From Bacteroidota bacterium (GTDB lineage Bacteria; Bacteroidota; Bacteroidia; Flavobacteriales_D; Crocinitomicaceae): 64,000 nucleotides of DNA. The number at the start of each line of letters is the position of its first letter. The stretch's first letter is position 1. The stretch lies in contig JAJRQK010000026.1 of assembly GCA_024280295.1 (NCBI GenBank), positions 1 to 64,000 on the forward strand, read 5' to 3'. The notes below the pieces were generated by a model that saw only the letters and a program-made list of their open reading frames with translations, searched no databases and was not told the origin of the DNA. This document shows, piece after piece, positions 808-45,479 of the stretch. Both the position numbers and the translations under genes were made by a program.

Positions 808-3800
808 TTAATTTTCATTTATAGCTTCCAAAACAATGGATTCCAAACCAATCATTTTTACTTGATTCTGTACCGCTGATATCTCGCTCGGTTCAATTCC
901 TTCGATAATTAACAGTAAACCTTCTCCTTTCTTTGTAAACTCTTTACTATATGGAAGTCTCAATATTAAGTCAACCAAATCTCCTGGAACTCTCGTTGTT
1001 GGAATATTTATGTGGATACTCTGTTTACTTAACTCGATTGCCAATTCATCATTAGAGAGATAAACAGTATCAATGTCCTCTTCAAATTTGTACAAGCGTG
1101 GCAACATATCTGTGTTATCATAAATAACGGATTTCACCTTTCCATTTTTCGCATCGAAGTAAAAATTACCTTCAGTATTGTATCGATTTAGAATATCACG
1201 AGGGAAAGAAGTAAATGTTTGTTTCGTGACTACCTGCACTTTCAGTTGCTCCGTTGGAGCAGTAATTATTGGAGCCTCAACCGTACTAGTGACAACTGTA
1301 TCTGTCCTAATAACATCATTCTGTGTTTCCACAAAAACAACTGGCTCAGAGACATCAATATTCGATTGGAGTATTGAAGGCCCCAGTTTTTCCAGTAGGC
1401 TGTTCGCTTCATAGACCCTAATTCTAACTCCTTCATAGTACGCAACAATAAACGCATCGGTGATTCCACTTTCGTAGGCTTTGATCTTTCTTGATTTACA
1501 ATCACTTGCTGAATCAAACATCCCTGTTGAATAACGAATTAAGCCATTTGGCAATCTAATTGTTAAGATTTCAGGAAGATAATTCAATCGCTTATCAGTT
1601 ACTACTCGATTGAAAACACCAATTTGAACTGTATAGAACAAACCTTTTTTTAATTCAATCGGATCTGCAGAAACTGCGCCCGGGGCTTGATTGTAAGTAT
1701 ATTCCGGCACTTCTTTGATCTCATTTATCAATGGTATTCCAAGATGATCAGCAGTCTTTTCAGCAACTTCCATCATCAATTCATTTGTTCCTTTAGGAAT
1801 ACATGTGCCTGCGGCTTCTCGTCTTCTAGCTTCTCCAAAAGAAATTCGTTCACCATCACAATAAGCAACAACAAATGCATCGCGGTATCCAAGTTGACGA
1901 ATCTGTTGTCGTGCATCAACCACTGCTGTACTATTATTAAAGAATCCTGCCATGTAACGCGTAATTCCAGTATTTCCAATTTTCTCCCCTGATACAGGAT
2001 TAAATTCTTTGAATAAATCTTGTGGAATAGCTCTAGCAAATGCCCCGATTTGGACACGATACGTCAATCCTGAAGGACTTTCTACTCCTACAGGAATCGG
2101 ATTTTCTTCAGAATAAATACTTGGTATTGCCTCGTTAATTGCTAATCCAGAAGAAGGCATTTGAATGATTGACAGAGCAACTGTTGCAACTTTAATCGGT
2201 TGAACGCCCCTTGCTAACAAGTTTTGAATTTTCATTGCTTCTTCCTGATTTGCTGGTAAAAGTTTGTCTGCAACCGCAGATTGCGTTGTAAGATCGGTAT
2301 TAATTCGTTCTAATTCAACTTCCATCGACTTGATTCTCTCAATTCTAAGCGCAATTTCAGATTGTCGATCTTCAGCTGTAAGTTGAGAATTATTGCTATT
2401 TATTATTCCAACCAATGCTGCTCTCTCTATGGACAAACTCTCTTCTAGTTCCCTTACTAGATTTTCAAGTTCCAATGCTTTTATACCTTCCACACGGTAA
2501 ACTGCATATTCTTCTGAAGCTGCTATTTCACGCTCCTCATTGAAAGATACTGTTTGCTGAAGTCCTGTACTCGCAATGATTGACAATGATTCTTTAACTG
2601 GATAGTCAACTAATTGTTTAGTAACTTCTTTCAATTGCTGCTCGGCACGATCACGGAATAACACCAAAACTTCTCTCTTCTCCTCTAACTCAGAAATTTC
2701 TTTTCGTTTTGCCTCTTTTATTTGCTCGTCAATTTGGAAGATTTGAATATCATAATTACCTATTTCAATCGTATAACGTCGTTTTCTTTCCAGAAGATCA
2801 CTTTTTGATGAAATGGTAATTCCTTCTTTTGCTTCAAAATCGCTAAGTTCTTTAGTATGAATAACATCTTCAAGTGATTCCACCAATGCATTTTGACGCG
2901 TTTCTGCTTGTTCTAAAAGAAACTGACGCTCTTGTGGAGATTTAGCATCCGAGGCATCTTCAATAATTTGATCAATCGCTTTACGTTCAAGAACACTAGC
3001 ATCGATTGCACTCGCAATGACTGGCGACTCTCTTGTTATCCCTTCATTTTTAAGCAGAGAATTCGTTAATTGATCCTGGTTCTTTTGCCCTACAATAATG
3101 GATGCGGTTTTAAGTTCGTTTCCACGTTCAACTTGCGCAGTTTCAACTCCCTCTAGTGATTCATTTAACGATCTTTTCTCAGCTGTACTCAATTCAGTAT
3201 TAGTTAATTGCTTAACAATTACCAACCGCTCATTTTCGAGTTGATTCAACGTTGGATCATCCTGTTGAGATGTTGTTGCAATTACTTCTGTTTCAAATTC
3301 ATCAAGAGAAATACTTATCATTCCTCGTTTTTTCCGAACGGTTTTCAATTCCTCCTCAACCCATTGCGCCTGTTCATTCAATTCTTTAGAAGGATTCTCT
3401 AATTGACGAGTTTGCAATAACAATAATTCAGATACAAGATCATTTTCATATTTCTCAAGGAGCTGATCTTGCGTTTTAAGGTCTTCTTTTGTTAAATAGG
3501 TATTCTCAATCGCAGAGGCATCACTTACAAGTAAGTTAGATCGTATTTCGCTGATAAATTCCTGTTTATCGGGCTGAGAAGCGACTACTTCGCTACCAAT
3601 TCTTGCGACATCCTCTCGTTTCTTACTCTCGCTGAGTTCATTTTCGAGGATCATCCATTCCAAGTCAACTTCGATCGAATAATTCCGATTTAAAGCTTTC
3701 TGCTTCTTTTCTAGTTCTTTCTCCAGCTCTTTTTGAAGTTCAATTTCTCGATCAGCAATTGCATCATTGTTTTGTGGTGTTTCTTGAAGAAGAATTCCCA

Positions 3801-6800
3801 TTTCAATAGAATATCTCTTATCGACACTACTGACTATTTTTGTATAATCATCACCCTTTTTTATATCCTCAAATGCTTGATTTCGTTGTGCCGCAATAGC
3901 GTCATTCTGCTCTTCGACTAATTCTTGTATAGCTTTAAGTTCTGCTTGAGTTTTGGGATCGTTAGGGTTTGAATTGGTTTTATCTTGTATCGCTGACTCT
4001 TCCTCCTTGATGCGATCCAGAAGTTCACGTTCCAATTCCCAAATTCCTATACTAATTTCTCCTACGGACTTCCCAGATTGACGTAAATCATTCACTGCCT
4101 CATCATGCGTCCCTACAATAGTTGATCTTAAATCAGTTTTGATCTCTTCAACATCTACGATTGAGGAAACATTCGTTAATGCGTTTATTTCTTGCGCCCT
4201 TTCATCAATTATACTTTCAGTGATTGTAGCAATTTCTTCAAGTGTATTTTTTCGTTGAATTAACGTAGGGTCATTCTGGTTTGCCACAATCTGTTCATCG
4301 ACATCGTTTATTGCTGTTCGTGTAGTTGTTAGCAACTCAACTTCTGTCGATTGCTGCTGAGTTAAACGATCAAGTTGACTCAATTCATCATTCGACGCTA
4401 TTTCTTCCATGCGAGATTGATACCCAGGATTGATTTGCTCAATCACCTCTGTCTTCGATACCGAAACAAAAGTAGAAACACTGTTCAACTCCTTTAGACG
4501 AGAATTAATCCCTGCAATACTTTGATCATTATCTGATTTAACTGATTCCAAAATCTCTAATTCAGCTAGTAAGTCATTATTTGTAGGATCACTTTCAAGT
4601 TGAGAGCGAACTTCAGTTAAACGGTCATTAATAATTTCACCGAGATTAGTTGCTTTAATTTGCAATTGGTCTAACTGCTCTTCTTCCGTTAAACTTGTAT
4701 TCGCCTTGATTATTCGAGCCTCAGTTTGATAACCTGGCATAAGATTATCGAGGACATCATCTTTTGATAGAGCAACTGGTGGATTTCCTGTATTGATTTC
4801 ATCTACACGATCTCTGAAACCTTCATTTTCAGTTTCCAATTTCGTTCGGTATTGAACCAATGCCATTTGCTCTTCTAGTAAATCCATATTCTCTGGATCT
4901 GCTTCCAGTTTCGTCTGAAGAACTTGAATTTCATTGGTTGAGTTATCAATAGTTGACTGGTTGTTGTCAATTAACCGATCTAATTTTCCCGATTCGGTCT
5001 GATTATTGTCAGCAATGATTTCTGAAACGGACTCAGTGTGAGATGCTTCAAGTTGGCTTTGTATTGATTCCTGTGTTGGATTCAGCGTTGGATCAGTGGA
5101 TGCAATTTCTGGATAATCATTCTCCAGTGCCTCGATCTCATTCTCAATTTGCTTATCCGTTGATTCATTCTCAAGATCGTTAGCTGCACGCACCGCTGCT
5201 TCAACATCTTCTATTGAAACGACAGCGACAAGAGATCCTGTAATCGATTCTTGTAAAACATCTATGTTTTCATCAATGACATTTGCTTTACGATCAATTG
5301 TTGCGATATCTGATTTATTGAACTTTTCATCCTCTAAAGTAACTGAAAGCTCTTCTTCTTTTGATGCAATTTCATCCTCCAATTCTCTACGCTGTTTCTT
5401 CTTTGCTCCAGGTAATTGGCCATTAAGGAGAGCTATATCTGCTTCGAGTTGACTTATTTTTGCAGTATTCTGTGTATTGTGATCCCTTAAATCACCTTGT
5501 CTTTTCCGTAGATCGATGCTTTCATCAATCATATCAGTGATCATACCCTTAGGTGAGGAATTTCTAATCCCAAAAATTTCACTCTGTTTAATTGCGAGTA
5601 AATCCCATGCTGTCTCTTCATCTCCAGATTTAATTGCTTGATCAAACTCTTTCCCCAAATCAGCAATTTCAGTACCACCTTTGGAATCTCCAAACTCTGA
5701 TTGAATTGTCGCCTTTAGTTTATTTAACCCCGCAATTTGATCTGTCAATGCGCTAATTTCAGAGCCGATTTTTTTCGCTTCTTTGAGGTATTCATATTTT
5801 TCAACTGGATCTTCTGAATCAGCAGCCCGTCTGATTAGCTCTTGTTGTGCAGTTACAAGTCCATTTAAATCCAATGACGCATTAATAATGTTCTGATCGA
5901 TTCCATCAGACATCTTTTTTACATTCGCATTTTGATCTCTTTCCGCAATTGCAAGTTCATTTAGTTGATTTTGAACTTCATGAGGACTCATTCCATCAAA
6001 ACCAAGATCTGCTAAAATTTCATCCCGTTTACGAGCTAAATCAAAAGCTGCCAGAATTGCTGGATCAAAGGTGTCGACATTTATATTAAGTTCAGCTTTC
6101 TTTCTTAGAATTGGGCCGATTAACTCTGATCCTCCTTCAATTCTTTCATCAAAGAGGTTGACAATTTTAACTCGCTCTCCTTCTGGAGTTTCAATATGAA
6201 TAATTTTCTGTTTGAGCGGACGGAATTCATCCAAGAATGGGAGTTCAAGATCGATTTCAGTGACCTCATCCATTCCTGCAATTTTAATTCTGTAGGTATA
6301 TTTACCTCCTTGTGGGAATACATGTGAATATTTGCCCGTCGCATTTGACTTGATTGTACCAATTTCATTCCCAGTTGCTCCCGCAATCACAGTAACGATC
6401 ATTTCCTTATTCTGTGGGTTAATTTCAGAAAGAAAATCGCCCATAATGATCACTTCTTGGATCGGGATTCGTGCAACTCGAACTCTATACACATGTAACT
6501 TACCTTCTTCGCTTTGACGTGCAGAGGCAAAATAGGCATTTTGGTACGCTGAATCAACTACATAAAAAAGGTCATCATCAGGAGAGCAAATTGCAAAATC
6601 GACATTTTCTGTACGCATAAATGCATTAGCGACAGGATCAAATCGTGCCATGAACACATCATAACCTCCCATTGAATTGTGTCCCTTCGAACTAAAATAG
6701 AGGTACTGTCCTGAGGGATGCAAATACGGGAAGTTATCATCGTATGGAGTATTCACTTCACCTGGCAAACTATAAGGAGCACCCCAACTTCCATTAGGTA

Positions 6801-7503
6801 ATTTTTTGCGGACATAGATATCGAGTCCAGTAGTGCCTTTTTCACCGTAACTTGAATAGTAGACCGAAGTGGCATTTTTAGGAAAATGAACAATAGGTAC
6901 ATGCCCCATCTTCTTATCCATTTTACTTTGAAAACGTTCTGTGACAAGAATTTTCCCTCCAATGCTTTCCATATCATGGTACAAGCGGAAGAATTTACTT
7001 TCATCAATCTGTTTTTTCTCAGAAACTATTATATCGGTGAAGGTTGATAGGAGTCGTTTTCCATTATCACACATCGCAATTTCACGGTCAACATCAAAAC
7101 TCTTATCCTTTGGAGAGCGCTTGCTTTTGTATGCCTTATACATTTTCTTTGCTTCCTTGAATTGATAATTCAAATGAAGTGCCCTACCTCTAAAATAGTA
7201 CGCTCTAGGATCTGCTGATTTACTTGTTATGGCATAAGAAAGATACCGTAACGCATCCTTCTTCTTGTCATCGGCATTGAAAATTAAACATGTGCCGTAT
7301 CGATAATTATAGTCGAAATCTTGCGGATTGAGTGAAATTAAGCGCAAATACAGTGACGTAGCCTCAACGTATTGCTCTTCATCGAACAGTTTGTTGGCTT
7401 TTTCCTTGATATCCTCCTCTGTATCTTGAGCATGCAAAGATGCGGCAAGAAAGAAGACAGCTAGGACAGCTACTATTTGTTTTAACAATTTCACATTAAA
7501 CAT
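808..7503 (-). CDS. Giant exported protein: TPR, PD40, CRD-like fold, long coiled coil, SPOR-like repeats
   Basis: 2231 residues with a signal peptide ending LAASLHAQ (about 1-26). Visible order: TPR-like helices (about 28-130); two PD40/WD40-like motifs (about 210-230, and 260-284 with LHPSGQYLYFSSKG...GGYDVFMA); a carboxypeptidase-regulatory-like beta domain (about 358-418); then about 1300 residues of Glu/Lys/Gln-rich heptad-like sequence (about 470-1790); then two clear SPOR-like domains (about 1808-1892 starting TYRVQIGAFARA, and 1953-2034 starting FYTVQIGVFNR) and a degenerate third (about 2084-2150). SPOR domains bind peptidoglycan stripped of peptides. The TPR-PD40-CRD order is that of PorE, a T9SS-associated OmpA-type protein, but no OmpA_C domain is seen. 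A role as a periplasmic scaffold tied to peptidoglycan is inference. It sits between the 1538-residue gene and clpS. Confidence 0.8.
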   Translation of the reverse strand: MFNVKLLKQIVAVLAVFFLAASLHAQDTEEDIKEKANKLFDEEQYVEATSLYLRLISLNPQDFDYNYRYGTCLIFNADDKKKDALRYLSYAITSKSADPRAYYFRGRALHLNYQFKEAKKMYKAYKSKRSPKDKSFDVDREIAMCDNGKRLLSTFTDIIVSEKKQIDESKFFRLYHDMESIGGKILVTERFQSKMDKKMGHVPIVHFPKNATSVYYSSYGEKGTTGLDIYVRKKLPNGSWGAPYSLPGEVNTPYDDNFPYLHPSGQYLYFSSKGHNSMGGYDVFMARFDPVANAFMRTENVDFAICSPDDDLFYVVDSAYQNAYFASARQSEEGKLHVYRVRVARIPIQEVIIMGDFLSEINPQNKEMIVTVIAGATGNEIGTIKSNATGKYSHVFPQGGKYTYRIKIAGMDEVTEIDLELPFLDEFRPLKQKIIHIETPEGERVKIVNLFDERIEGGSELIGPILRKKAELNINVDTFDPAILAAFDLARKRDEILADLGFDGMSPHEVQNQLNELAIAERDQNANVKKMSDGIDQNIINASLDLNGLVTAQQELIRRAADSEDPVEKYEYLKEAKKIGSEISALTDQIAGLNKLKATIQSEFGDSKGGTEIADLGKEFDQAIKSGDEETAWDLLAIKQSEIFGIRNSSPKGMITDMIDESIDLRKRQGDLRDHNTQNTAKISQLEADIALLNGQLPGAKKKQRRELEDEIASKEEELSVTLEDEKFNKSDIATIDRKANVIDENIDVLQESITGSLVAVVSIEDVEAAVRAANDLENESTDKQIENEIEALENDYPEIASTDPTLNPTQESIQSQLEASHTESVSEIIADNNQTESGKLDRLIDNNQSTIDNSTNEIQVLQTKLEADPENMDLLEEQMALVQYRTKLETENEGFRDRVDEINTGNPPVALSKDDVLDNLMPGYQTEARIIKANTSLTEEEQLDQLQIKATNLGEIINDRLTEVRSQLESDPTNNDLLAELEILESVKSDNDQSIAGINSRLKELNSVSTFVSVSKTEVIEQINPGYQSRMEEIASNDELSQLDRLTQQQSTEVELLTTTRTAINDVDEQIVANQNDPTLIQRKNTLEEIATITESIIDERAQEINALTNVSSIVDVEEIKTDLRSTIVGTHDEAVNDLRQSGKSVGEISIGIWELERELLDRIKEEESAIQDKTNSNPNDPKTQAELKAIQELVEEQNDAIAAQRNQAFEDIKKGDDYTKIVSSVDKRYSIEMGILLQETPQNNDAIADREIELQKELEKELEKKQKALNRNYSIEVDLEWMILENELSESKKREDVARIGSEVVASQPDKQEFISEIRSNLLVSDASAIENTYLTKEDLKTQDQLLEKYENDLVSELLLLQTRQLENPSKELNEQAQWVEEELKTVRKKRGMISISLDEFETEVIATTSQQDDPTLNQLENERLVIVKQLTNTELSTAEKRSLNESLEGVETAQVERGNELKTASIIVGQKNQDQLTNSLLKNEGITRESPVIASAIDASVLERKAIDQIIEDASDAKSPQERQFLLEQAETRQNALVESLEDVIHTKELSDFEAKEGITISSKSDLLERKRRYTIEIGNYDIQIFQIDEQIKEAKRKEISELEEKREVLVLFRDRAEQQLKEVTKQLVDYPVKESLSIIASTGLQQTVSFNEEREIAASEEYAVYRVEGIKALELENLVRELEESLSIERAALVGIINSNNSQLTAEDRQSEIALRIERIKSMEVELERINTDLTTQSAVADKLLPANQEEAMKIQNLLARGVQPIKVATVALSIIQMPSSGLAINEAIPSIYSEENPIPVGVESPSGLTYRVQIGAFARAIPQDLFKEFNPVSGEKIGNTGITRYMAGFFNNSTAVVDARQQIRQLGYRDAFVVAYCDGERISFGEARRREAAGTCIPKGTNELMMEVAEKTADHLGIPLINEIKEVPEYTYNQAPGAVSADPIELKKGLFYTVQIGVFNRVVTDKRLNYLPEILTIRLPNGLIRYSTGMFDSASDCKSRKIKAYESGITDAFIVAYYEGVRIRVYEANSLLEKLGPSILQSNIDVSEPVVFVETQNDVIRTDTVVTSTVEAPIITAPTEQLKVQVVTKQTFTSFPRDILNRYNTEGNFYFDAKNGKVKSVIYDNTDMLPRLYKFEEDIDTVYLSNDELAIELSKQSIHINIPTTRVPGDLVDLILRLPYSKEFTKKGEGLLLIIEGIEPSEISAVQNQVKMIGLESIVLEAINEN

Positions 7504-7596
7504 CGCTGATCACACGATGTTACTAGTTTCTAATACGCCTTGAACATGAAAAGGTTCAATTCAATTGACTAACAATTCATTATCTCAAAACACCTC

Positions 7597-10500
7597 TTAT
7601 TCGTAGAGACGCATAAATTTAGCGAGAAATGCGCTATTAGTTGTCATTTCGTATTTGAAGTTTTTCTTTTTACGTTTATCTTCTTTGATAGCATTCACCG
7701 CTTCACTCAACTCAGAATCGCCCGATTTGATTCTTAGAACACCATCTTTCTGCTTCATTTGATAGTTAAAGAAATAATCTCTACCCCCTGGAATATCGAT
7801 AAAAATAGTAAACATATCATTATTCATTTTCCCCTTTATGCCTGCGTATGTCTGCTGAAAAAACGCTTTCATTGGGACATACTTCATTACTGGTCTACCA
7901 TAAATACTAACCAGAACCGCTGATTCAACATCTGTAATTAAACCACTCGTTTGAAGACGGCTACTTTCATAAGAACTCAATCGAAGTCCAGTAATAGTCA
8001 TTGTTTTTTCCAATCCATCTGGCAGTTTTTTCACCTTCCCTTCCTGTACATACTCCTCGACAAATTTATCGGCAGCTTTTAAGCCATCCCATTCTACAAT
8101 TGCTTGCTCCAAAGTATTAGAGTTGAAATCAGACGGTTGCAGTCCTTCAATCTCATTAATTCTATCAGCAACATCTTGCATAACACCTTTATCCACTGGC
8201 ATATCAAAACGTGCTGTTAGATTCATAGTTGTTTTTCCAGTTGATTGATTGTAGTTGACAATTCCTACCGCATCAACAATAGCATCGCCATAATTCATTC
8301 CGAGATTGATAATTCCATCACCATTCATTGAACAGCTCTCTGTATGTAAGGCAATGTAGTTTCCTTTCTCGTCTCTATTAATAAGTTTATCACGTGATGC
8401 AATTTGAAATTCCTTTGTTCCAGCATCGTATTGAAGGTACCCACTTGATGTCATCACGATAGGATCACCTGGGTCAACTAAAGATGATAAGAATGTTGGA
8501 TATAGCGCAACGCTATCAGTGTTCGGTGAATCTCTCCAAACAATTCCAGCGGAGATTGCGCCACCATCAAGATCTTTCATTTCAGGAACTACAGGAATCT
8601 GAATATTCTTAGGGTCAATTTCGGATCTAAATGCCATCCAGTTCCTATCAAATTTTGAGCAACTATGATTAATTCTCGTTGCTCCAGAAAACGCAATTAG
8701 AGGATTATCCGCATGAATAGAAACGTCGCCATAGAAATCAAATTCCCTACTCAATTTAAAGTCTTCATCAATTGCAATTTTCCCAGATGCTCTTGTCTGA
8801 AAGGCAGTATCAAGTCCAATATTATTCATTGCCACATAGGTTACATTGCTATCAACATCGTAGTAAGGATACTGACCTGAGGCTTCGTAATCTCTTTTTG
8901 CTTTAATTTGTACTGTTGCTTTTTCGAAGCTATGGTATTTCGTGATATAGTTAGCTACGATTGATGCGTTTTGAAGTTCATCCATCTTCGCACGCTTTCT
9001 TATAGTCACTAGCATACTATCAGGGTAAATTCTAGCATCTGCCACATCGATGTATTCCACTTTAGAACAATAAATTATTTTTTTTCTACCATCAAACCTT
9101 GCACGTGGTGCTCGGAAATTCAACGAATCCTGATTTTTATGCGTTGAGAAGAAATTAGACCCAACCAAATCTACACCTACATCAATGTTTATGTCAGCGG
9201 CTCCACTTTTTTCCATTTCAATTGAAATTTCATCCATCAACCATTTAAATACATCCATCTTTGCCATGTACTGATTTACAGGAAACTCAACTTTTCGTTC
9301 GCCATCATTTGAATTAAACACACCAATTCGATCCTTGAATGAAACATTAGCCTTCACATTATCAGTAGTAAATACAAGTGCATCCTCCTCAGTGTCATCA
9401 CCCTCATTTTTTAAACGGAATGAAGAAGTATCTGCCAAAACATCGTATCGTTTAAATCCAAAATCCTTCGAGATTAAGTTTGAGTTTTTGAAAGTCATCA
9501 GACCAAATCCACGCATTCCATTTGGTCGAATTGTGACTGTTCCTCTCAACTTTGCTTCATCACTGAACATTAAAATGTCATTTTGTGGAGTTGATTCCGC
9601 TCGAAGAATATTCAAATCTGGAATGTAGGTGATATAGGCACGAGCAGATGATGCATCAGGGAATTCAACCCCTGTATCAACTGGACGATTTACGAATTCA
9701 GCAAAACCTACCGTTGAATCCGGTAAAAAACTGAGTGCTTTTGAAACTGAAGTAGAGGCCATAAAGTTAATCGTACCACTACCTTGCAAACCGTTGTTTG
9801 ACAATACGATTTTATTTTTGTACTTGGCATCGGTTCCATAGAAAGTATAACCATTATCAGGTGCAGTAGTTGCAAACCCAAAAGAATAATCCTGCATTAT
9901 TTTCAGAGGCTCCTTTATGTTTGGGAAAATTCCAGCGGAAACAAGTTCTCCTTCTAGTCTCAATGCACTTTCCTTGAAAGAATTCAGACTATCCATCTCA
10001 AATGGTGCTACCGTATAATAAAATCGAGTACTATCATAAGCTCCTCGATATATGTCTTGCGAATTGTAGAATATTTTCGTGCTATTTATAGAATTCAATT
10101 TAGGGTAATCACCATTCTTTGTGTCAACACCTGATCTGTTTTTTGGATCATCAATTAGAATTTCACCAGTTACTCCTCTCAAAATACTTGCCATTGGAAT
10201 CCCTCTTGTTCCGTGTGCTTTATCTAAAGGTCTTATTCTAAATAAACTTTCGTTTGTTTTCTGAAGTTTGATTTTGAAGTCTGCGTAAGAAAAGGACGCT
10301 AATTCAGCATTCGTCTCTAACTTACCTGCATTTGTCCATCCACTATAAATAAAATCCCTATTCTCCTTAATTTTCACAAGCCCATCAGTGGGGAAGATGA
10401 TCGTATTTTTCTTTACCGAAATCAAGACATTATCTACCGCATCTAAGTCGAGTTCCAAAGTAGATAGGCTCATCACTCCGAAATCTTTTTTGAGTGTCAA

Positions 10501-12210
10501 ATCTCGATTTCGTTGTTCAAAATCGGCCTTAAATTCAGCATCATTTACTGCAATCTCAGCTAACCTACCACTCAATTTTCTTGGACGCAGATCTGATCTA
10601 AAAACGAGGTTATCATAATCTCGTTTTCCAACTTTCGCACGTACGAAATTGTCTAGTTTTGGTTTTACTTCTACAGTTTCCAACTCAGTATCATAACTGA
10701 TAAATCCAAAACTTGAGAGTTGTAATAACAATGGCTTGGCCTGCTCAACTATCTTATTCATTGCCGATGCCGCCTGACCCTCTGTTAGTATATACTCATC
10801 GTATTTATAACAATACTTTGAGATTGCCACGAGTGGATGAGTCGCTTCCATTGACTGGAGTTGATCATAAAGACGTTCATCAAAATAAGATTGTGACTCA
10901 AATTTAGCCAATCGCTGTTCTTGACTCGTACCAAATTCGTATGTAAAATGAAGTTCGTCTTCATCAAGGTTCCATATTATTTTCGGTACATAAATATCAA
11001 GTTTATGATATGAATCTTGAAATGGCGCTTCACCAATCCCCGATTTTGCTCTCGTAAATTGTATTTGTTTTTTATCGAGGTAGTAACTCAATCCAATACC
11101 TGGATGTGTCAACGAATCGCCTGTTTTGAAGAACAAAGCCATTTCTCCGCGATAAACAGCAATTTTATCAGTTGAAACAACAATCTCCTTTGCTTTAGCC
11201 GTAATAAAAGGAACTCCTTCTCGCTTTATTGTGATCATCGCGCGTTCAAGATCAGTACCTGCGCCGAGAAATGACGCACCTTCTAAGGCAAATCCGCCAA
11301 CGTAATCAACGCCGGGAACAATTTCATTAATTACTAGTCGTTTTTCAAATGATAGAAATTGGGGGTAAATTTTATCTTCCTCTCTATTAATTTTAAATGC
11401 TCTTTCTGTTAAAATCCCCATAATCGGCTTATCAAAATAGGAAGTTGTAAGTAAAACCGAATCAAATCGAATTGTGGAAGACTTGAGTGTATGGCTGTAA
11501 TTTTCAAGCATTGCAAAATTCTTTGTCGGATCAAGTCCAACTTTATTCCAAGTAATTTTACCTCCTTTGCCAATCCATTTACGCAATACTGGATCATAAT
11601 TTCCAGTTGTCTCAATAATAACAAGACTATCAACTGTTTCACCTCGGTTTTTACCTGATTTACTAATTGCTCGACATACCAAATTTCCCCCCGTCAATTT
11701 TACGTTCACCTTTTTATTAAATTCAAAGGCGTAGTCCCCACCAAGGTAAAACCATTCAAAATTTGAGGATGTTGAAATTTTTCCGTTCGAGAAAAATCCA
11801 GCAGAGAACTCAGCAAATGATTTGATTTTCTTCACCTGTCTAGACTTCAGCATTTTCTCAACCGTTGATTGCCATGCTTCATAACTCGCCTTTGGTTGAC
11901 CACCAGTTACGAAAGCTGATACAGAGAAGACATAGTTGTATATCTCAGGATAGACTTTTAGTCGTTTTGTTTCCATTAGATTACAGGTCTCCACCATTTT
12001 AGAAAAATAATCATTAGGGAATTCTTGGCCTTCGAGAAGCAATGGTGTCAATTCATTTTTAACAAAATCACGAAAATCACCAGTACCGTATTCAGCAATT
12101 TTCTTTTGAAAGTCTTTCACGAATTTTTCTCGTGTATTTGGAAATGACTGAGAGAATCCCATAAATGAGACCATCATCAATAAGCATACTAGCCAGTATT
12201 TACGATTCAT
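7597..12210 (-). CDS. Large exported protein of unknown function (1538 aa)
   Basis: I do not recognise the family. The ATG at 12210 is preferred over an upstream TTG (12228) because it places a signal peptide, MNRKYWLVCLLMMVSFMGFSQ-like, at the N-terminus. The mature part is rich in alternating hydrophobic/polar strands, with repeated short phrases such as 'I.Y.S..E' and 'A.I.PD' that suggest a long beta-rich, possibly beta-helical or OstA-like fold; the last 60 residues are basic (KEDKRKKKNFKYE). There are no transmembrane helices after the signal. It starts 36 nt after prmA ends and is followed after 93 nt by the 2231-residue gene, so the two very large proteins are probably co-expressed. 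An envelope or lipid/LPS transport role is a guess. Confidence 0.75.
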   Translation of the reverse strand: MNRKYWLVCLLMMVSFMGFSQSFPNTREKFVKDFQKKIAEYGTGDFRDFVKNELTPLLLEGQEFPNDYFSKMVETCNLMETKRLKVYPEIYNYVFSVSAFVTGGQPKASYEAWQSTVEKMLKSRQVKKIKSFAEFSAGFFSNGKISTSSNFEWFYLGGDYAFEFNKKVNVKLTGGNLVCRAISKSGKNRGETVDSLVIIETTGNYDPVLRKWIGKGGKITWNKVGLDPTKNFAMLENYSHTLKSSTIRFDSVLLTTSYFDKPIMGILTERAFKINREEDKIYPQFLSFEKRLVINEIVPGVDYVGGFALEGASFLGAGTDLERAMITIKREGVPFITAKAKEIVVSTDKIAVYRGEMALFFKTGDSLTHPGIGLSYYLDKKQIQFTRAKSGIGEAPFQDSYHKLDIYVPKIIWNLDEDELHFTYEFGTSQEQRLAKFESQSYFDERLYDQLQSMEATHPLVAISKYCYKYDEYILTEGQAASAMNKIVEQAKPLLLQLSSFGFISYDTELETVEVKPKLDNFVRAKVGKRDYDNLVFRSDLRPRKLSGRLAEIAVNDAEFKADFEQRNRDLTLKKDFGVMSLSTLELDLDAVDNVLISVKKNTIIFPTDGLVKIKENRDFIYSGWTNAGKLETNAELASFSYADFKIKLQKTNESLFRIRPLDKAHGTRGIPMASILRGVTGEILIDDPKNRSGVDTKNGDYPKLNSINSTKIFYNSQDIYRGAYDSTRFYYTVAPFEMDSLNSFKESALRLEGELVSAGIFPNIKEPLKIMQDYSFGFATTAPDNGYTFYGTDAKYKNKIVLSNNGLQGSGTINFMASTSVSKALSFLPDSTVGFAEFVNRPVDTGVEFPDASSARAYITYIPDLNILRAESTPQNDILMFSDEAKLRGTVTIRPNGMRGFGLMTFKNSNLISKDFGFKRYDVLADTSSFRLKNEGDDTEEDALVFTTDNVKANVSFKDRIGVFNSNDGERKVEFPVNQYMAKMDVFKWLMDEISIEMEKSGAADINIDVGVDLVGSNFFSTHKNQDSLNFRAPRARFDGRKKIIYCSKVEYIDVADARIYPDSMLVTIRKRAKMDELQNASIVANYITKYHSFEKATVQIKAKRDYEASGQYPYYDVDSNVTYVAMNNIGLDTAFQTRASGKIAIDEDFKLSREFDFYGDVSIHADNPLIAFSGATRINHSCSKFDRNWMAFRSEIDPKNIQIPVVPEMKDLDGGAISAGIVWRDSPNTDSVALYPTFLSSLVDPGDPIVMTSSGYLQYDAGTKEFQIASRDKLINRDEKGNYIALHTESCSMNGDGIINLGMNYGDAIVDAVGIVNYNQSTGKTTMNLTARFDMPVDKGVMQDVADRINEIEGLQPSDFNSNTLEQAIVEWDGLKAADKFVEEYVQEGKVKKLPDGLEKTMTITGLRLSSYESSRLQTSGLITDVESAVLVSIYGRPVMKYVPMKAFFQQTYAGIKGKMNNDMFTIFIDIPGGRDYFFNYQMKQKDGVLRIKSGDSELSEAVNAIKEDKRKKKNFKYEMTTNSAFLAKFMRLYE

Positions 12211-12246
12211 AATACAATGTGTTTTCAATTAATGTATGAAGATTTC

Positions 12247-37625: not shown

Positions 37626-40601
37626 TTACTCTACAATAATTCTTCTAACTGCGGTTTCGATATCAGTATTAACTCTTAAGAAATAAACCCCAGAAGCATC
37701 AGATCCTAGATTTACTAGTTTCGAAATCGTACCGTTAACAAATCCTAGATCTTCATTCCAAATCACTCTTCCTTGAGCATCAAGAATAATTGCAGAAATG
37801 TTTGATGAAGTTTCTAAGTTTAAACTAACTGTAAACTCTCCAGTATTTGGGTTAGGATATAATTCAAGTGATTGACTCAAAGCATTCTCATCGATTCCAA
37901 GAACAGACGCAACAGTAGTACCTGTGTAGGTACTAGTTCCACATGGGCCTGTAACAGTGAGTGTGACCACATAAGTTCCTTCTGACCCATATACATAGAT
38001 AGGATTTTCATTTGTAGAAGTCCCAGAACCATCACCGAAATCCCAAGAATATGTGTCAATTGTCCCTGAAGAAGTACTAGTGAAGATACCAGTCATAAAT
38101 GAAGTTAGAATGTTAAATCCAGCAACTGCATCGGGAATATCAACTAGCTCCAGCGAAGATATTGCAGTTCCGCAAGCGGTTGTAACAGTAACGTCATAGG
38201 TTCCTGGTGCAGAGGCATTAATAGTCGGTGATGTTTCAGTTGTTGACCAAAGGTATGCTCCATCACTAGAAGGAGACCAGCCACCTAATAATTCTGCCGC
38301 ATTTGAACATTTCCAAATCGTATCCATTGTGAATCCGAAATTGGTAAGCCCTAAAAATTCATCTGCTCCAATATCAAATGCAAGAGTATCTCTCAATTGA
38401 CCGTCAAAGTCCATTGTTATGTTCATATCCTCCCATCCATTTCCATCAAGTAATGTATCGTTGCAAGTATGCAGATCAATATCGGTTGTGTATCCAGGAT
38501 TTCCACTTACTGAGTTCATATCAGTACCTGTTATAATTTGCCAATCTAGCAGTGTGTTTTGTGCTACACCAAAATAACCTACGTTACCATTTGGTGCGTA
38601 GATGTTGTTGTAATCTGAACTCGAAAGACCACCGTTCAGATAGAACCCATATCCTGGTCCCCAGTTCACAATATTGTTATTGTAAACCTTGTTACCCAAT
38701 CCACTGGTCATATACAGAGCTCTAGAATTAATCCCTCCAGAGTACATATTGATGGAGTTATTAATTACATTCAAGTTAGACGTATTTGTCATGTAAATCC
38801 CGTACGAGGTGCCAGTATTCAATGAATCTGAAATACTGAAAAAATTATTTGACATATAAGAGGAGCTTGCTGCGTAGCTTGTACAATTACTTAAATACCA
38901 ATTGTACCCCCGTGATGGTACATTAAAATCATTACCATTAAAGGTAAGATTACCATTGTTATAAGAGCTGTATGCACAGTAAGTTGAACCTGAGTAGTTG
39001 CCACTAAATCGAACAATGTTGTTGGTAACTGTAACATCTTCCATATAGTAGAGATGTATGCCACGATAATATATATGAGAAAGTACATTATTATCAAAGA
39101 TTAATCCTTTTTCCAAACCAGTTGTATTGTTTCCATACCAAAATATTCCATACGAACCATACGTAATTGCATTATTAAGGAACATATTCATAGTATCAAG
39201 AGTACCGTTGAAAGAGGTAATTACAGCTTTATTAGTTGAAGTTGTAAATGTATTTGAATCACCAATAATCATGTTTCCATCAAATGTATTCCAACTAGAT
39301 TCATTCGTTACATCTATTACTGTAGAAAAAGTTGGGCCATTACTTTCTAGGGTCATTTCTTTGAAGGTAACATAATCAGCCCCATCCATTTGCAAAGTAT
39401 AGTTACTAGCAGAATTAGTTGGCGAGTAAATCATTGTAACAAGTGTTGGATCAGCATTTAAGGATTGAAATGTAATTGTGTTAGTTACCGATGCTCCCAT
39501 AATTTCAGGAATTGAAATTTGTTCTGGGTAAATTCCATCATCGACATCAATAACAACAGGCCCACACACACCATAAAGGCTTAATGCTGCAACAGCATCA
39601 TTGAAATTTGCATAATCTCCTGCAATACCAATTGAATAAGGCCCCATTAGACCTGTTTGAATAGTAATTGAAGTTGTGTCATTTGCTGGCCCACTTCCCA
39701 TTTCAACTCCAGCGTTTGGATCTGATGTCCATACCTGAAGAAAATCACCATTTATAAATGTGTATGTTCCTAGTGAAGCAGTTGCTTCCATTCCACTAAC
39801 CAATGATCCAGTCCATGCGAAAGGTGTTTGAATAATAGCGTTCACAGACCAATTAATATTTACGGATGTCAATGTGTTTGTTCCGAAGTTCCTAACAGTT
39901 CCAGAAACAGGTGAGTTCACCAAGTTACAGCTTGGAAGTCCTGGTGCTGGAATTGCTGTAATCCCAGCATCTAATGGAAGAGGTTCGTAGAAAGTAACAG
40001 CATCAATGGCCATATCACTTGTGAAGCTTGTTGAACTTACGCCTCTGAATCTTACACGAACGTCGGACATACCTGCATAAGCAATTAGGTTTACTGTATC
40101 CACAAACCATTGATCTCCTTGATTTCCAGATTTAGTCCAAAGCATCGTTGGATAAGTAATTCCACCATCAGTACTGACTTCAACAGAAAGTGTACCCATT
40201 GAGGATCCGTACATGTGGTTTGAGAAAATCATATTCAAGCCTCCAACACTAGTCATATCTAGAACTGGTGCATGTAGTATTGCAGTTACATTTGAGTAAC
40301 AAGGTGAAGACGTCTCAAAATAAAGGTATTTACCACTTGTGTTTCCTGGGTCATAATCAACAGATGGCCCTGTATTAGATGAGGATGTGCCTCCTACATC
40401 TACAATCCATTCACCTGCATCTCCAGGTCCTTCGTTTACCCATCCATTAATTAGCAGACAAGTCAAGTTACAACTTCCCGTACAAGTTGAGAATGTTTCA
40501 AAGTCTTGGTAGTAAGGGAAAGTGCTCAATTGCGAAAGGCCATTTCCTGCAAACATTAGTAGACCCAAAACGAGTAGGGTAGAATTAAGTTTCTTTTTCA
40601 T
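37626..40601 (-). CDS. Secreted T9SS type A cargo: MAM-like, CARDB-like, beta-helix and PKD domains
   Basis: 991 residues. Signal peptide ends at FAGNGLSQ (about 1-24). Order: a MAM/jelly-roll-like domain (about 28-205, PYYQDFETF...AIDAVTF), a CARDB-like region (about 208-320), a parallel beta-helix (about 325-750, many N-N-x-I repeats), an Ig-like stretch, one PKD domain (about 824-900, YSWDFGDGSGTS), and a type A sorting signal (about 905-991, LYPNPNTGEFTVSL...GVYFLRV). The type A signal directs export by the T9SS and usually attachment to A-LPS or release. Role: surface or extracellular; whether the helix is an enzyme (lyase) is not visible. Confidence 0.9.
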   Translation of the reverse strand: MKKKLNSTLLVLGLLMFAGNGLSQLSTFPYYQDFETFSTCTGSCNLTCLLINGWVNEGPGDAGEWIVDVGGTSSSNTGPSVDYDPGNTSGKYLYFETSSPCYSNVTAILHAPVLDMTSVGGLNMIFSNHMYGSSMGTLSVEVSTDGGITYPTMLWTKSGNQGDQWFVDTVNLIAYAGMSDVRVRFRGVSSTSFTSDMAIDAVTFYEPLPLDAGITAIPAPGLPSCNLVNSPVSGTVRNFGTNTLTSVNINWSVNAIIQTPFAWTGSLVSGMEATASLGTYTFINGDFLQVWTSDPNAGVEMGSGPANDTTSITIQTGLMGPYSIGIAGDYANFNDAVAALSLYGVCGPVVIDVDDGIYPEQISIPEIMGASVTNTITFQSLNADPTLVTMIYSPTNSASNYTLQMDGADYVTFKEMTLESNGPTFSTVIDVTNESSWNTFDGNMIIGDSNTFTTSTNKAVITSFNGTLDTMNMFLNNAITYGSYGIFWYGNNTTGLEKGLIFDNNVLSHIYYRGIHLYYMEDVTVTNNIVRFSGNYSGSTYCAYSSYNNGNLTFNGNDFNVPSRGYNWYLSNCTSYAASSSYMSNNFFSISDSLNTGTSYGIYMTNTSNLNVINNSINMYSGGINSRALYMTSGLGNKVYNNNIVNWGPGYGFYLNGGLSSSDYNNIYAPNGNVGYFGVAQNTLLDWQIITGTDMNSVSGNPGYTTDIDLHTCNDTLLDGNGWEDMNITMDFDGQLRDTLAFDIGADEFLGLTNFGFTMDTIWKCSNAAELLGGWSPSSDGAYLWSTTETSPTINASAPGTYDVTVTTACGTAISSLELVDIPDAVAGFNILTSFMTGIFTSTSSGTIDTYSWDFGDGSGTSTNENPIYVYGSEGTYVVTLTVTGPCGTSTYTGTTVASVLGIDENALSQSLELYPNPNTGEFTVSLNLETSSNISAIILDAQGRVIWNEDLGFVNGTISKLVNLGSDASGVYFLRVNTDIETAVRRIIVE

Positions 40602-42776: not shown

Positions 42777-45479
42777 CTATTTAAGAAGGTTTATACTTCC
42801 TGTAAATTCAACTTTTTTATCAGTATAGAGGTCTTTTACGTTTGCCTTCCACTGGTAGGTCCCAGTTTGAATAATTTTCCCATTGTAAGTTCCATCCCAT
42901 CCAACTGATGGGTCATGAGTTTCCCAAATGATTTCTCCCCATCGATTAAAGATAAATAATTCAAAGTCGTAAATATCGACACCTTGTATTTCAGCTTTCC
43001 AAGTTTGATTTAGTTCATCATTATCAGGAGTAAATGCATTTGGAGCGAAGAAAAGAATGTCATTATGAACATTCATATTGATAATTAACGTGTCCACACA
43101 TCCAAGTGCAGTTTCAACAATAAGAGTTACTGGGTAGATCCCTGCAACACCAGGAAAATCAAAGGCTGGTTGTGTTTGATTACTTGTTGTTGGGTTCGAG
43201 TATGGGCTAAACCAGCTCCAACTAATCACGTCTGTTGAAGATCGATCTTGCAATTTTATTCCCTCTGATTCAAATATCGATGCTGGATTATTAGAGAAAG
43301 TAAAACCTGCAATAGGATTCGGTTTTACAGATACAATTTGCTTCATCGTATCTGTATAAACACAACCATAGATCGAAGTTGTAATCAATATTATATCATA
43401 AGTTCCAACCGCATTGTATTGATAAGAAGTAGAATCGTCTGCAACTTCAAGTGAAGCACCTTGCTGATCTCCAAAATCCCAGTAAGTTGTTGCAATCTCT
43501 GATGCATTTATTGAAGTATTCGCGAATTCGAATCGTCCTGGCATACAAAATTCAGTAAAGTCTGAAACCGCTTGAGGTTCAATTGGTGATGGGAAGGTAA
43601 TCATTGTACATTCTTGAGTTGTTGGCGACCCACAAGCTTCTGATAATGTAACACAATATTGGGTATTGGTTACCAATGGGTCAACAGTAATTGATGAACC
43701 AGTACCAATTAAATTTGCGCCTTCATACCATGTAAATGTGTATGCAGATGATCCGCCTGCTCCAGTAGCTGAAAGAATAATTTCATCTTCTGGACAAATT
43801 TGTGTTGTTGGTGTGATTGATGTAATAACTAATGAAGCAGGCTGACTAAGCGTTGCTGTAATTGTAATTATACACCCATTGTCATCAATGACAGTAACAG
43901 TATGTGTACCAACAGACAAACCTGTGGCTTGCGAGCTCGTAGATGCCGAATTATCCCAAGTATAGGTGTATGGTGACGTTCCCTGATTGACAGAGACATC
44001 AATTATTCCATCAGTACCACTATTACATGATGGATCTGTTTGGGAGGTAATAACACCAACCATTCCTGGGATTTCTACTACTGTTAGGATTACCGTGCCG
44101 AAACAACCAATGTCTGAGGTAACAATACAGGTGTATGTTCCTGCAATTAGTCCAGTAGCAGTTTGTGTCGTCTGAGCCGCTGGATCATCCCATAAATAAG
44201 TTACAGTACCAAGCATTGGAATCATTTCAGCAAAAGCTGTTCCGTCATTTCCTCCAGGACATGATACTAAGGTTGTTGATCCTTGGAAAGTCGCAGGTGT
44301 ATCACCAACTAAAACGCTTGCAGTGGATGTACAACCAATACTATCGGTCATAATTACCGTATAAGTACCAGCAAAAACACCATTGACAGTTTGATTTGGA
44401 TTATTTCCTAGTGTCGTCCAATCATAAGTATATGGTGCAGTTCCACCAGTTGGGGTTGCCGTTACCGATCCTATTCCAGCCGTACAAATGTCATCAACTG
44501 CTGATGCGCTAACTGACGAAGTTGTCCCAGTTACCCAAGTTGTATCAGATACTGCGCCTAAAGATGCTCCACACGCAGACCCTGAAAGATAGTAGCCAGT
44601 TGATCCAGCAGCAACAGGATTAATAGTTATTGTTGGGGCGTATGGCCATGTTGTTCCTGCAGTACTTTCCCATTGAAAAGATGTACTTGCACTAGTTGTT
44701 AAGATGTATGGGATTGGAGCAATCGTATAATTGTTAGTAACGGAAGGTGATGTCGGAGTCCAACGCATTCCTTCTTGATTGGCTGACCAAACAGAATTAT
44801 TTCTACCTGGTGTAATGTGAGCAACTGAACCTCCTGCATTTTGAGTTCCTTGAATCGCTAATCCACTGTTCCAGCTAACACATGTTGGTTTGTCACCAAT
44901 ATGCACCTCAATTTCATTAGAGGTCTCGTAAAGAATAACGGCAATGTAATTACATACTGATGTACAGCTGAAAAAATTGATATCCGAATAAAGAACAATA
45001 AAAATTCTATTTGGAGCAGTTCCTATTGTTTCATATTGGATTGTCCCGCCTAGAGTGGGATTAACATCTTGATAAGCTGGCATTATTGAATTCTGTATCA
45101 GAGTTGCTCCTGCATTTGGGAGTGTTCCTAATCCACCCATAGCCCAAGGACAAAATCCATTTGCAAGTGATAGGTCAAAAGAAAGAATGTTATTGGATCC
45201 TATTGTCAACTGTGTATAGGTTGATCCGTAAAAATCAAAACTAAAGCCAATATTTACTGGAGCACTGTATTGATCATCACTTAAAAAAACCGAACTAGGT
45301 GATACAAGAACAATTCCTTGAGATGGGCCACCGCCGCCGCTCCCACAGTTTTGAATAGAGACTGTAGAACCAACGCATACTACAGTATCTGTCCCTAAAC
45401 AAACTGTTTGTGCATTGGAAATAGTACTTGTGATTAATAACAGCGCAGTGCCGAGCAGTGTAGTAAGTGAATTCTTCAT
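42777..45479 (-). CDS. Secreted T9SS type B cargo with SprB-like repeats and PKD domains
   Basis: 900 residues, signal peptide ending TISNAQ (about 1-24). After a nidogen-like N-terminal part (about 45-240) come three SprB-like repeats (about 330-400, 400-480, 483-543; pattern G-G-T-x-P-Y-T-Y-x-W), an Ig-like part, two PKD domains (about 640-716, 723-800) and a gliding-motility-associated C-terminal domain (about 810-900: FAPNAFTPDNDELNQTW, FNRWGEIIWE, GTYQWK), which is the type B signal. Type B cargo such as SprB needs PorP/SprF-like partners; none is visible in this window. Likely a surface adhesin. Confidence 0.93.
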   Translation of the reverse strand: MKNSLTTLLGTALLLITSTISNAQTVCLGTDTVVCVGSTVSIQNCGSGGGGPSQGIVLVSPSSVFLSDDQYSAPVNIGFSFDFYGSTYTQLTIGSNNILSFDLSLANGFCPWAMGGLGTLPNAGATLIQNSIMPAYQDVNPTLGGTIQYETIGTAPNRIFIVLYSDINFFSCTSVCNYIAVILYETSNEIEVHIGDKPTCVSWNSGLAIQGTQNAGGSVAHITPGRNNSVWSANQEGMRWTPTSPSVTNNYTIAPIPYILTTSASTSFQWESTAGTTWPYAPTITINPVAAGSTGYYLSGSACGASLGAVSDTTWVTGTTSSVSASAVDDICTAGIGSVTATPTGGTAPYTYDWTTLGNNPNQTVNGVFAGTYTVIMTDSIGCTSTASVLVGDTPATFQGSTTLVSCPGGNDGTAFAEMIPMLGTVTYLWDDPAAQTTQTATGLIAGTYTCIVTSDIGCFGTVILTVVEIPGMVGVITSQTDPSCNSGTDGIIDVSVNQGTSPYTYTWDNSASTSSQATGLSVGTHTVTVIDDNGCIITITATLSQPASLVITSITPTTQICPEDEIILSATGAGGSSAYTFTWYEGANLIGTGSSITVDPLVTNTQYCVTLSEACGSPTTQECTMITFPSPIEPQAVSDFTEFCMPGRFEFANTSINASEIATTYWDFGDQQGASLEVADDSTSYQYNAVGTYDIILITTSIYGCVYTDTMKQIVSVKPNPIAGFTFSNNPASIFESEGIKLQDRSSTDVISWSWFSPYSNPTTSNQTQPAFDFPGVAGIYPVTLIVETALGCVDTLIINMNVHNDILFFAPNAFTPDNDELNQTWKAEIQGVDIYDFELFIFNRWGEIIWETHDPSVGWDGTYNGKIIQTGTYQWKANVKDLYTDKKVEFTGSINLLK

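Follow-up and report, generated by a model that had tools for sequence, protein, structure and literature searches.

A giant protein with a PorE-like head and a SPOR tail

We analysed a 64,000-nucleotide stretch of DNA, referred to here as the window, from a Bacteroidota bacterium of the family Crocinitomicaceae (GenBank assembly GCA_024280295.1, contig JAJRQK010000026.1, positions 1 to 64,000). Close to its start, an intact open reading frame on the minus strand (808-7503), beginning with ATG, encodes a protein of 2231 residues that we call the giant. To judge from its sequence the protein is apparently exported: by eye, residues 1 to about 25 (7429-7503, on the minus strand like all features of the gene given below) look like a signal peptide. 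The giant has three parts: a head of TPR, beta-propeller and CRD-like domains, a long and mostly helical centre with repeats of ~101 residues, and a tail with SPOR domains. This domain architecture is well supported, and from it we infer the function discussed below.

The giant was compared with long reading frames from other genomes. Within the family, 39 long homologues of 1817-3621 residues, chosen across genera, all carried both head and tail, as did all 31 of the long frames selected from 27 additional families; these counts describe frames picked for length and for spread over genera and families, not all genomes. Together with the window's own family, the comparison took in 28 families, with frames of 1805-3621 residues. 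In two loci the head is incomplete: L064 lacks the first ~73 residues, and L245, from another family, begins inside the head. We predicted structures for residues 1-1200 and for the tail, with mean predicted local distance difference test (pLDDT) scores of 82.2 and 80.0. The structure alignments, A3 and A4, covered 36 and 26 of the 40 family proteins, respectively.

The head has the domain order of PorE

A preliminary description, made from the sequence alone, had read the N-terminal domain order as that of PorE, a component of the type IX secretion system (T9SS), and this reading held. The TPR domain spans residues 29-154 (7042-7419). Several Pfam TPR models match it below threshold in the window protein, TPR_2 matches 26 of the 40 family heads, and the model shows TPR helices with 10-residue pLDDT means of 77-92. 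TPR domains in the PDB aligned to the head model with target template modelling (TM) scores mostly of ~0.7-0.8, at E-values of 1.5e-3 and weaker; the sole matches below 0.001 in this structure search were two poor fits, a dynein and 4h40. The beta-propeller domain follows at residues 156-347 (6463-7038), where the model shows strands and PD40 matches residues 249-284. PD40 scored 21.3 bits in the whole window protein and 26 bits with the head alone, over a Pfam cut-off of 20.9, and matched 30 of the 40 family heads. Strands were also predicted for the CRD-like beta fold at residues 351-450 (6154-6453). Pfam CarboxypepD_reg, which had been expected here, matched in only one of the 40 heads, so the CRD assignment rests on the model together with the alignment of the CHU_0125 and PorE profiles to residues 207-396 and 212-402 of the window protein. 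With that basis for the CRD, the TPR, propeller and CRD order of PorE is present in the giant.

As the preliminary description had also proposed, an OmpA-type anchor is missing: Pfam listed no OmpA family for the window protein up to an E-value of 1. An outer-membrane anchor of another kind found no support either. The window protein contains no lipobox, and a lipobox-like pattern occurred in just one of the 40 family proteins (L048), at residue 4 of an apparently over-extended start, upstream of the likely one.

The centre carries helical repeats

Between head and tail, the preliminary description had proposed about 1300 residues of coiled coil. The model shows long helices at residues 459-800 (5104-6129), ahead of an array of repeats. 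A repeat profile identified four clear units in the window protein: unit 1 at residues 821-894 (4822-5043; 43.0 bits), unit 2 at 921-998 (4510-4743; 52.5 bits), unit 3 at 1024-1102 (4198-4434; 54.4 bits) and unit 4 at 1132-1205 (3889-4110; 36.5 bits). The profile was seeded with two window units, within which units 2 and 3 lie, and then iterated on the same proteins, which favours them; used alone and without iteration, the two seed units matched 22 other proteins at E<1e-5. Across the family, 33 of the 40 proteins contained 236 units (E<0.05), with up to 16 in relatives of the window protein and none in the other seven. Spacing was regular, with a median of 101 residues and 170 of 203 spacings within 90-115. 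No units were found in the seven control sets (one reversed, three with local shuffling and three with heptad blocks shuffled). Repeat number rose with protein length (Spearman 0.76, 40 family proteins). Outside the family, the profile matched 5 of 31 proteins, none of them from beyond the order.

Each modelled unit pairs two helices of 32-34 residues with one or two short ones. Ahead of and between the units, pLDDT falls below 50 (residues 802-812, 906-910, 1009-1014 and 1111-1115), and the model thus suggests a chain of three-helix units with flexible, low-confidence joints. The segment beyond the array, residues 1206-1790 (2134-3888), has no match to the repeat model in the window protein and is modelled as mostly helical, as the tail model shows for the rest of the centre to about residue 1765. 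A search for internal self-similarity of the centre gave 839 of 1855 segments in the family, 287 of 1155 in other families and 9 of 759 in controls, which were heptad-shuffled and drawn from every fourth protein; self-BLAST of the centre found no pair. A mostly helical centre of about the proposed length was therefore borne out. A single continuous coiled coil was rejected, since the ~101-residue repeats in 33 of 40 proteins are the kind of finding that the preliminary description had itself named as counting against one. Spectrin-type repeats are tandem units of ~100 residues with three helices. The likeness of the giant's units to them lies in the predicted model only, and we claim no homology; neither the Pfam nor the Foldseek listings of the giant contained a spectrin match.

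A helix of 32 residues is ~4.8 nm long, and the 1290-residue centre is worth ~13 units. Laid end to end, the centre would thus measure ~60 nm, and roughly double in the longest relative. A typical periplasm is narrower than such a chain, so the proposal that the protein spans the periplasm was not supported. The chain, with its four recognisable units in the window, may instead be folded back, run obliquely or lie along the wall.

The tail carries two SPOR domains

The first SPOR domain (SPOR1) lies at residues 1813-1900 (1804-2067). The preliminary description had staked its SPOR reading on a significant match within residues 1808-2034. In the whole window protein, Pfam SPOR (PF05036) matched residues 1814-1879 with an E-value of 0.028 and 15.2 bits, under the 21-bit cut-off; with the C-terminal 442 residues alone the score was 22.4 bits (E-value 1.6e-4), and the model matched all 40 family tails at E<=0.01. 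A genome-wide PF05036 search listed two other SPOR proteins and missed the giant, and with SPOR below threshold in the whole protein as well, the window protein is ambiguous by itself. The second domain (SPOR2) lies at residues 1955-2041 (1381-1641). It has the same predicted topology as SPOR1, and its best PDB match by sequence was a weak one to the CwlC SPOR domain 1x60 (E-value 0.0049). With the profile of the whole tail, the best E-value in a PDB sequence search was 0.0076. The predicted strands and helices fit the RNP-type SPOR fold in part, with structural matches in the PDB below significance.

The residues expected to contact glycan are strongly conserved in both domains. In the structure of RlpA with denuded glycan, the available sections of PMC6895207 name a conserved Gln, a Phe and an Arg patch as the key side chains, and the same residue types are given there for FtsN and DamX. 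The window protein has Q1818, F1822 and R1849 in SPOR1, and Q1960 and R1990 in SPOR2. The Gln is kept in both domains in all 71 proteins compared; the aromatic position of SPOR1 is Phe in 70 and Tyr in one; and the basic residue of strand beta3 is Arg or Lys in 66 of 71 for SPOR1 and 70 of 71 for SPOR2, where the pairing of individual Arg residues with those of RlpA is our own reading of the strand pattern. These contact residues fit the predicted binding of the tail to denuded glycan. A pair of cysteines at SPOR1, Cys 1882 within the domain and Cys 1901 just beyond it (1858-1860 and 1801-1803), is kept in all 40 family members and forms a possible disulfide; the first of the two occurs in one of 31 proteins from other families.

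Of the two or three SPOR domains first proposed, two are supported in the window protein and a third is not. Residues 2089-2225 (829-1239) are modelled as a C-terminal alpha/beta domain. No family match was common to its relatives (30 of the 40 sequences, alignment A6), and a profile comparison of this region with SPOR2 gave no alignment. In many more distant relatives this place is taken by a third SPOR match: the SPOR part of the profile matched once more at the C-terminus in 17 of 19 frames at class level and 3 of 12 at order level (E<=0.05), so three SPOR domains may be ancestral. In a pattern search, with a single motif in the helical region discounted in L048 and another in the window protein, 7 of the 40 family proteins had three to five SPOR-like motifs. 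The C-terminal 700 residues of L064, L068, L069, L070, L071 and L087 held four or five such motifs rather than two; the tails of L067 and L072 stop after SPOR2.

FtsN, DamX, DedD, RlpA and CwlC share with the giant a SPOR domain with Gln, Phe and basic residues of the types involved in contacting denuded glycan (PMC6895207, available sections). According to the same sections, most SPOR proteins consist of one small SPOR unit, a disordered linker and an N-terminal membrane anchor. In contrast, the giant has two to five SPOR-like motifs by pattern search, helical repeats and a PorE-like head, and we saw no membrane anchor.

The giant fits neither PorE nor CHU_0125

PorE of Porphyromonas gingivalis resembles the giant in its order of TPR, beta-propeller and CRD-like domains, in being exported and in its proposed scaffold role. 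In the available sections of PMC7192894, it is described as an acylated lipoprotein whose chain stops near residue 668 with an OmpA_C-like domain attached to stem peptide; Flavobacterium johnsoniae homologues are also said there to be without lipidation. The giant differs in having no lipobox and no OmpA match, in its long helical centre and SPOR domains, and in a shorter propeller segment (192 residues versus 269). It scored 71.5 bits against the NCBIfam PorE model NF052230, far under the cut-off of 600. The best NCBIfam match of its head was the model for the CHU_0125 OmpA-like outer membrane integrity protein, NF053607, at 98.4 bits (cut-off 620), with the best stretch at 281-470 (190 of 639 positions). 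The genome also encodes a separate, full-length PorE-like protein (C25:86720-88747), with 404.6 bits over positions 4-646, itself under the 600 cut-off. When the genome was searched with the PorE model, the giant (75.8 bits) ranked below fifteen other matched places. Membership in PorE was rejected, with the OmpA, lipobox and cut-off tests all failing, and with it the idea of a PorE whose anchor had been exchanged. By the tests made on its sequence, the giant belongs to neither PorE nor CHU_0125, with a head related to both and a tail related to SPOR proteins.

Contigs C24, C25, C27, C29, C39 and C40 of the genome encode at least eight proteins that align with the PorE model in both its head and its OmpA part; C12 and C42 have further partial matches.

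The closer match to CHU_0125 raises the possibility that the giant is a general tether between the outer membrane and peptidoglycan, acting over the whole cell to keep the envelope intact, the role presumed for CHU_0125, with the head holding an outer-membrane protein and SPOR replacing OmpA. The higher score of the head against the CHU_0125 model than against PorE fits this idea, as does the increase in vesicles and leakage reported on deletion of CHU_0125 (PMC5891637, available sections). We consider such a tether possible but unlikely: neither a lipid anchor nor an OmpA domain was seen, the genome already has the eight or more proteins with head and OmpA matches, and in the available parts of the sources SPOR recognises peptide-free glycan (PMC6895207), whereas the OmpA domain of PorE sits on stem peptide (PMC7192894).

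Distribution and the relation to the T9SS

With the C-terminal 440 residues as the query, 179 of the 200 family genomes searched gave matches, the weaker of which are likely other SPOR proteins. The tail profile matched 176 of 177 genomes of the order and 224 of 296 of the class at E<=0.001, and here too other SPOR proteins probably account for many of the weak class-level matches. Tightening the threshold to E<1e-30 left 121 of the 296 class genomes. This number, like the 120 and ~169 given below, is a hand count at a score threshold; heads were checked in part only, and split genes that fall below the threshold count as missing. Records matched by the tail profile carried names of Crocinitomicaceae genera such as Fluviicola, Taishania, Brumimicrobium and Lishizhenia. 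One further record, titled Glaciecola amylolytica (L149, CP034120.1), encodes a giant tail of the Crocinitomicaceae type and may be mislabelled.

Seven genomes of the same family (G001, G024, G054, G066, G005, G018 and G038), all drafts and chosen for a missing or very weak tail, had no giant-grade head either. Two others with a missing or weak tail look cut by the assembly, since their head matches reach or approach a contig end: G106 has a head in a 2332-residue frame running to the end of its contig (length 13536), and in G127 the head matches less strongly and lies close to the end of a contig.

The preliminary description had linked the protein to the T9SS or the gliding machinery, and a scaffold that fixes this machine to peptidoglycan, as proposed for PorE, would account for the PorE-like head. 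Its presence in genomes with SprA also agrees: SprA is encoded in the giant's own genome and in 120 of the 121 giant-positive class genomes, and two large window proteins (37626-40601 and 42777-45479, both on the minus strand) carry T9SS type A and type B sorting domains over the NCBIfam cut-off. Almost every genome of the class has SprA (289 of 296), so this overlap is expected. In the other direction, ~169 SprA-positive class genomes lack the giant at E<1e-30, all seven giant-less relatives keep SprA, and the genome has its separate PorE-like protein. We therefore think a T9SS or gliding scaffold very unlikely, although, with SprA in all but one of the giant-positive class genomes, the giant may still have an accessory role in the T9SS. 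An obligate T9SS part was rejected on the same SprA distribution, as was a T9SS-exported surface protein, since the giant's NCBIfam listing contained no T9SS sorting-domain model up to an E-value of 1.

The gene neighbourhood

The common gene order in the family is tpiA, prmA, a gene for a protein of 1543 residues, plsY, giant and clpS; names were checked by Pfam and NCBIfam on the window genes and one plsY. The 1543-residue gene lies upstream of the giant, directly or with plsY between them, in 39 of 40 family loci, and clpS lies downstream in 33. By sequence and position, plsY intervenes in 29 of the 40 (the loci L051-L063, L065-L067, L072-L082, L084 and L085). It does not do so in the window, where the gap of 7504-7596 leaves fewer than 100 bases between the two genes. 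In other families, whose loci hold differing amounts of upstream DNA, clpS comes after the giant in 18 of 31 loci, and in 15 of 31 the giant is preceded by plsY or the 1543-residue gene. The 1543-residue protein itself (7597-12228, minus strand) has a signal-like N-terminus and matched nothing in Pfam or NCBIfam up to an E-value of 1. Its relatives occur in 240 of the 296 class genomes, including families without the giant, so an obligate partnership was rejected and the link looks like old shared gene order. A tRNA-Arg (acg) gene lies near clpS at 362-436 on the minus strand.

The neighbours also bear on whether the giant regulates or carries cell-wall enzymes, its SPOR tail localising it while hydrolases or synthases are recruited by the head. 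Protein binding is common among TPR and propeller domains, and stimulation of penicillin-binding proteins has been reported for SPOR proteins of Escherichia coli (PMC7642682, available sections). No catalytic domain was matched in the giant by Pfam or NCBIfam, and no cell-wall hydrolase or synthase was recognised among the neighbours, which leaves such a carrier quite improbable.

A candidate scaffold on septal peptidoglycan

We lean, by a modest degree, towards reading the giant as a soluble, length-variable periplasmic scaffold that docks a partner on denuded, probably septal, peptidoglycan and is not a core part of the T9SS. Once exported, the giant would work in the periplasm in soluble form. 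Its head would bind a partner, as domains of these types suggest, and the central helical chain would act as a flexible spacer with its length set by the number of repeats. The SPOR domains, to judge from their profile match and ligand residues, would dock on peptide-free glycan strands, which would place the giant at the septum, where such glycan is enriched elsewhere. Its job would then be to hold the partner near septal or remodelling cell wall. By analogy, a location at the division site is the natural reading of SPOR, and the uncoupling from the T9SS, itself partial, supports the scaffold reading. Of the design first proposed, the scaffold-like architecture thus survives, without its periplasm-spanning and T9SS parts.

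Several observations weigh against this reading. The giant is not needed for division in general, since 175 of the 296 class genomes have no tail-profile match at E<1e-30 and the seven relatives apparently lack it too, and the recognised neighbours (clpS, plsY, prmA and tpiA) include no division gene. On the structural side, Pfam matched SPOR2 on its own in 6 of the 40 family proteins, with that of the window not among them. Foldseek returned nothing for the tail model at or below 0.001, and the best structural matches, at E-values of 0.017 and weaker, included RRM- and ferredoxin-like folds among others. The predicted TM scores of the two models are low (0.48 for residues 1-1200 and 0.42 for the tail), so the overall arrangement of domains in them is unreliable.

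A broader version of the scaffold reading is speculative, and we think it rather unlikely to hold in full: giants of this kind would form a class-wide, undescribed group of soluble scaffolds in Bacteroidota, whose repeats tune the distance from peptide-free septal peptidoglycan to an outer-membrane partner and which coordinate outer-membrane constriction or machine placement with division. If true, other systems would handle this task elsewhere. We found no published description of such a protein among open-licence PMC papers. To our knowledge, little is understood of how the cell wall of Bacteroidota is linked to division and to outer-membrane machines, and the giant is a concrete candidate for that linkage, with a spacer length that varies naturally between species. 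Although about two-fifths of the sampled class genomes seem to carry it, often beside clpS, the giant escapes a standard SPOR profile search in its own genome.

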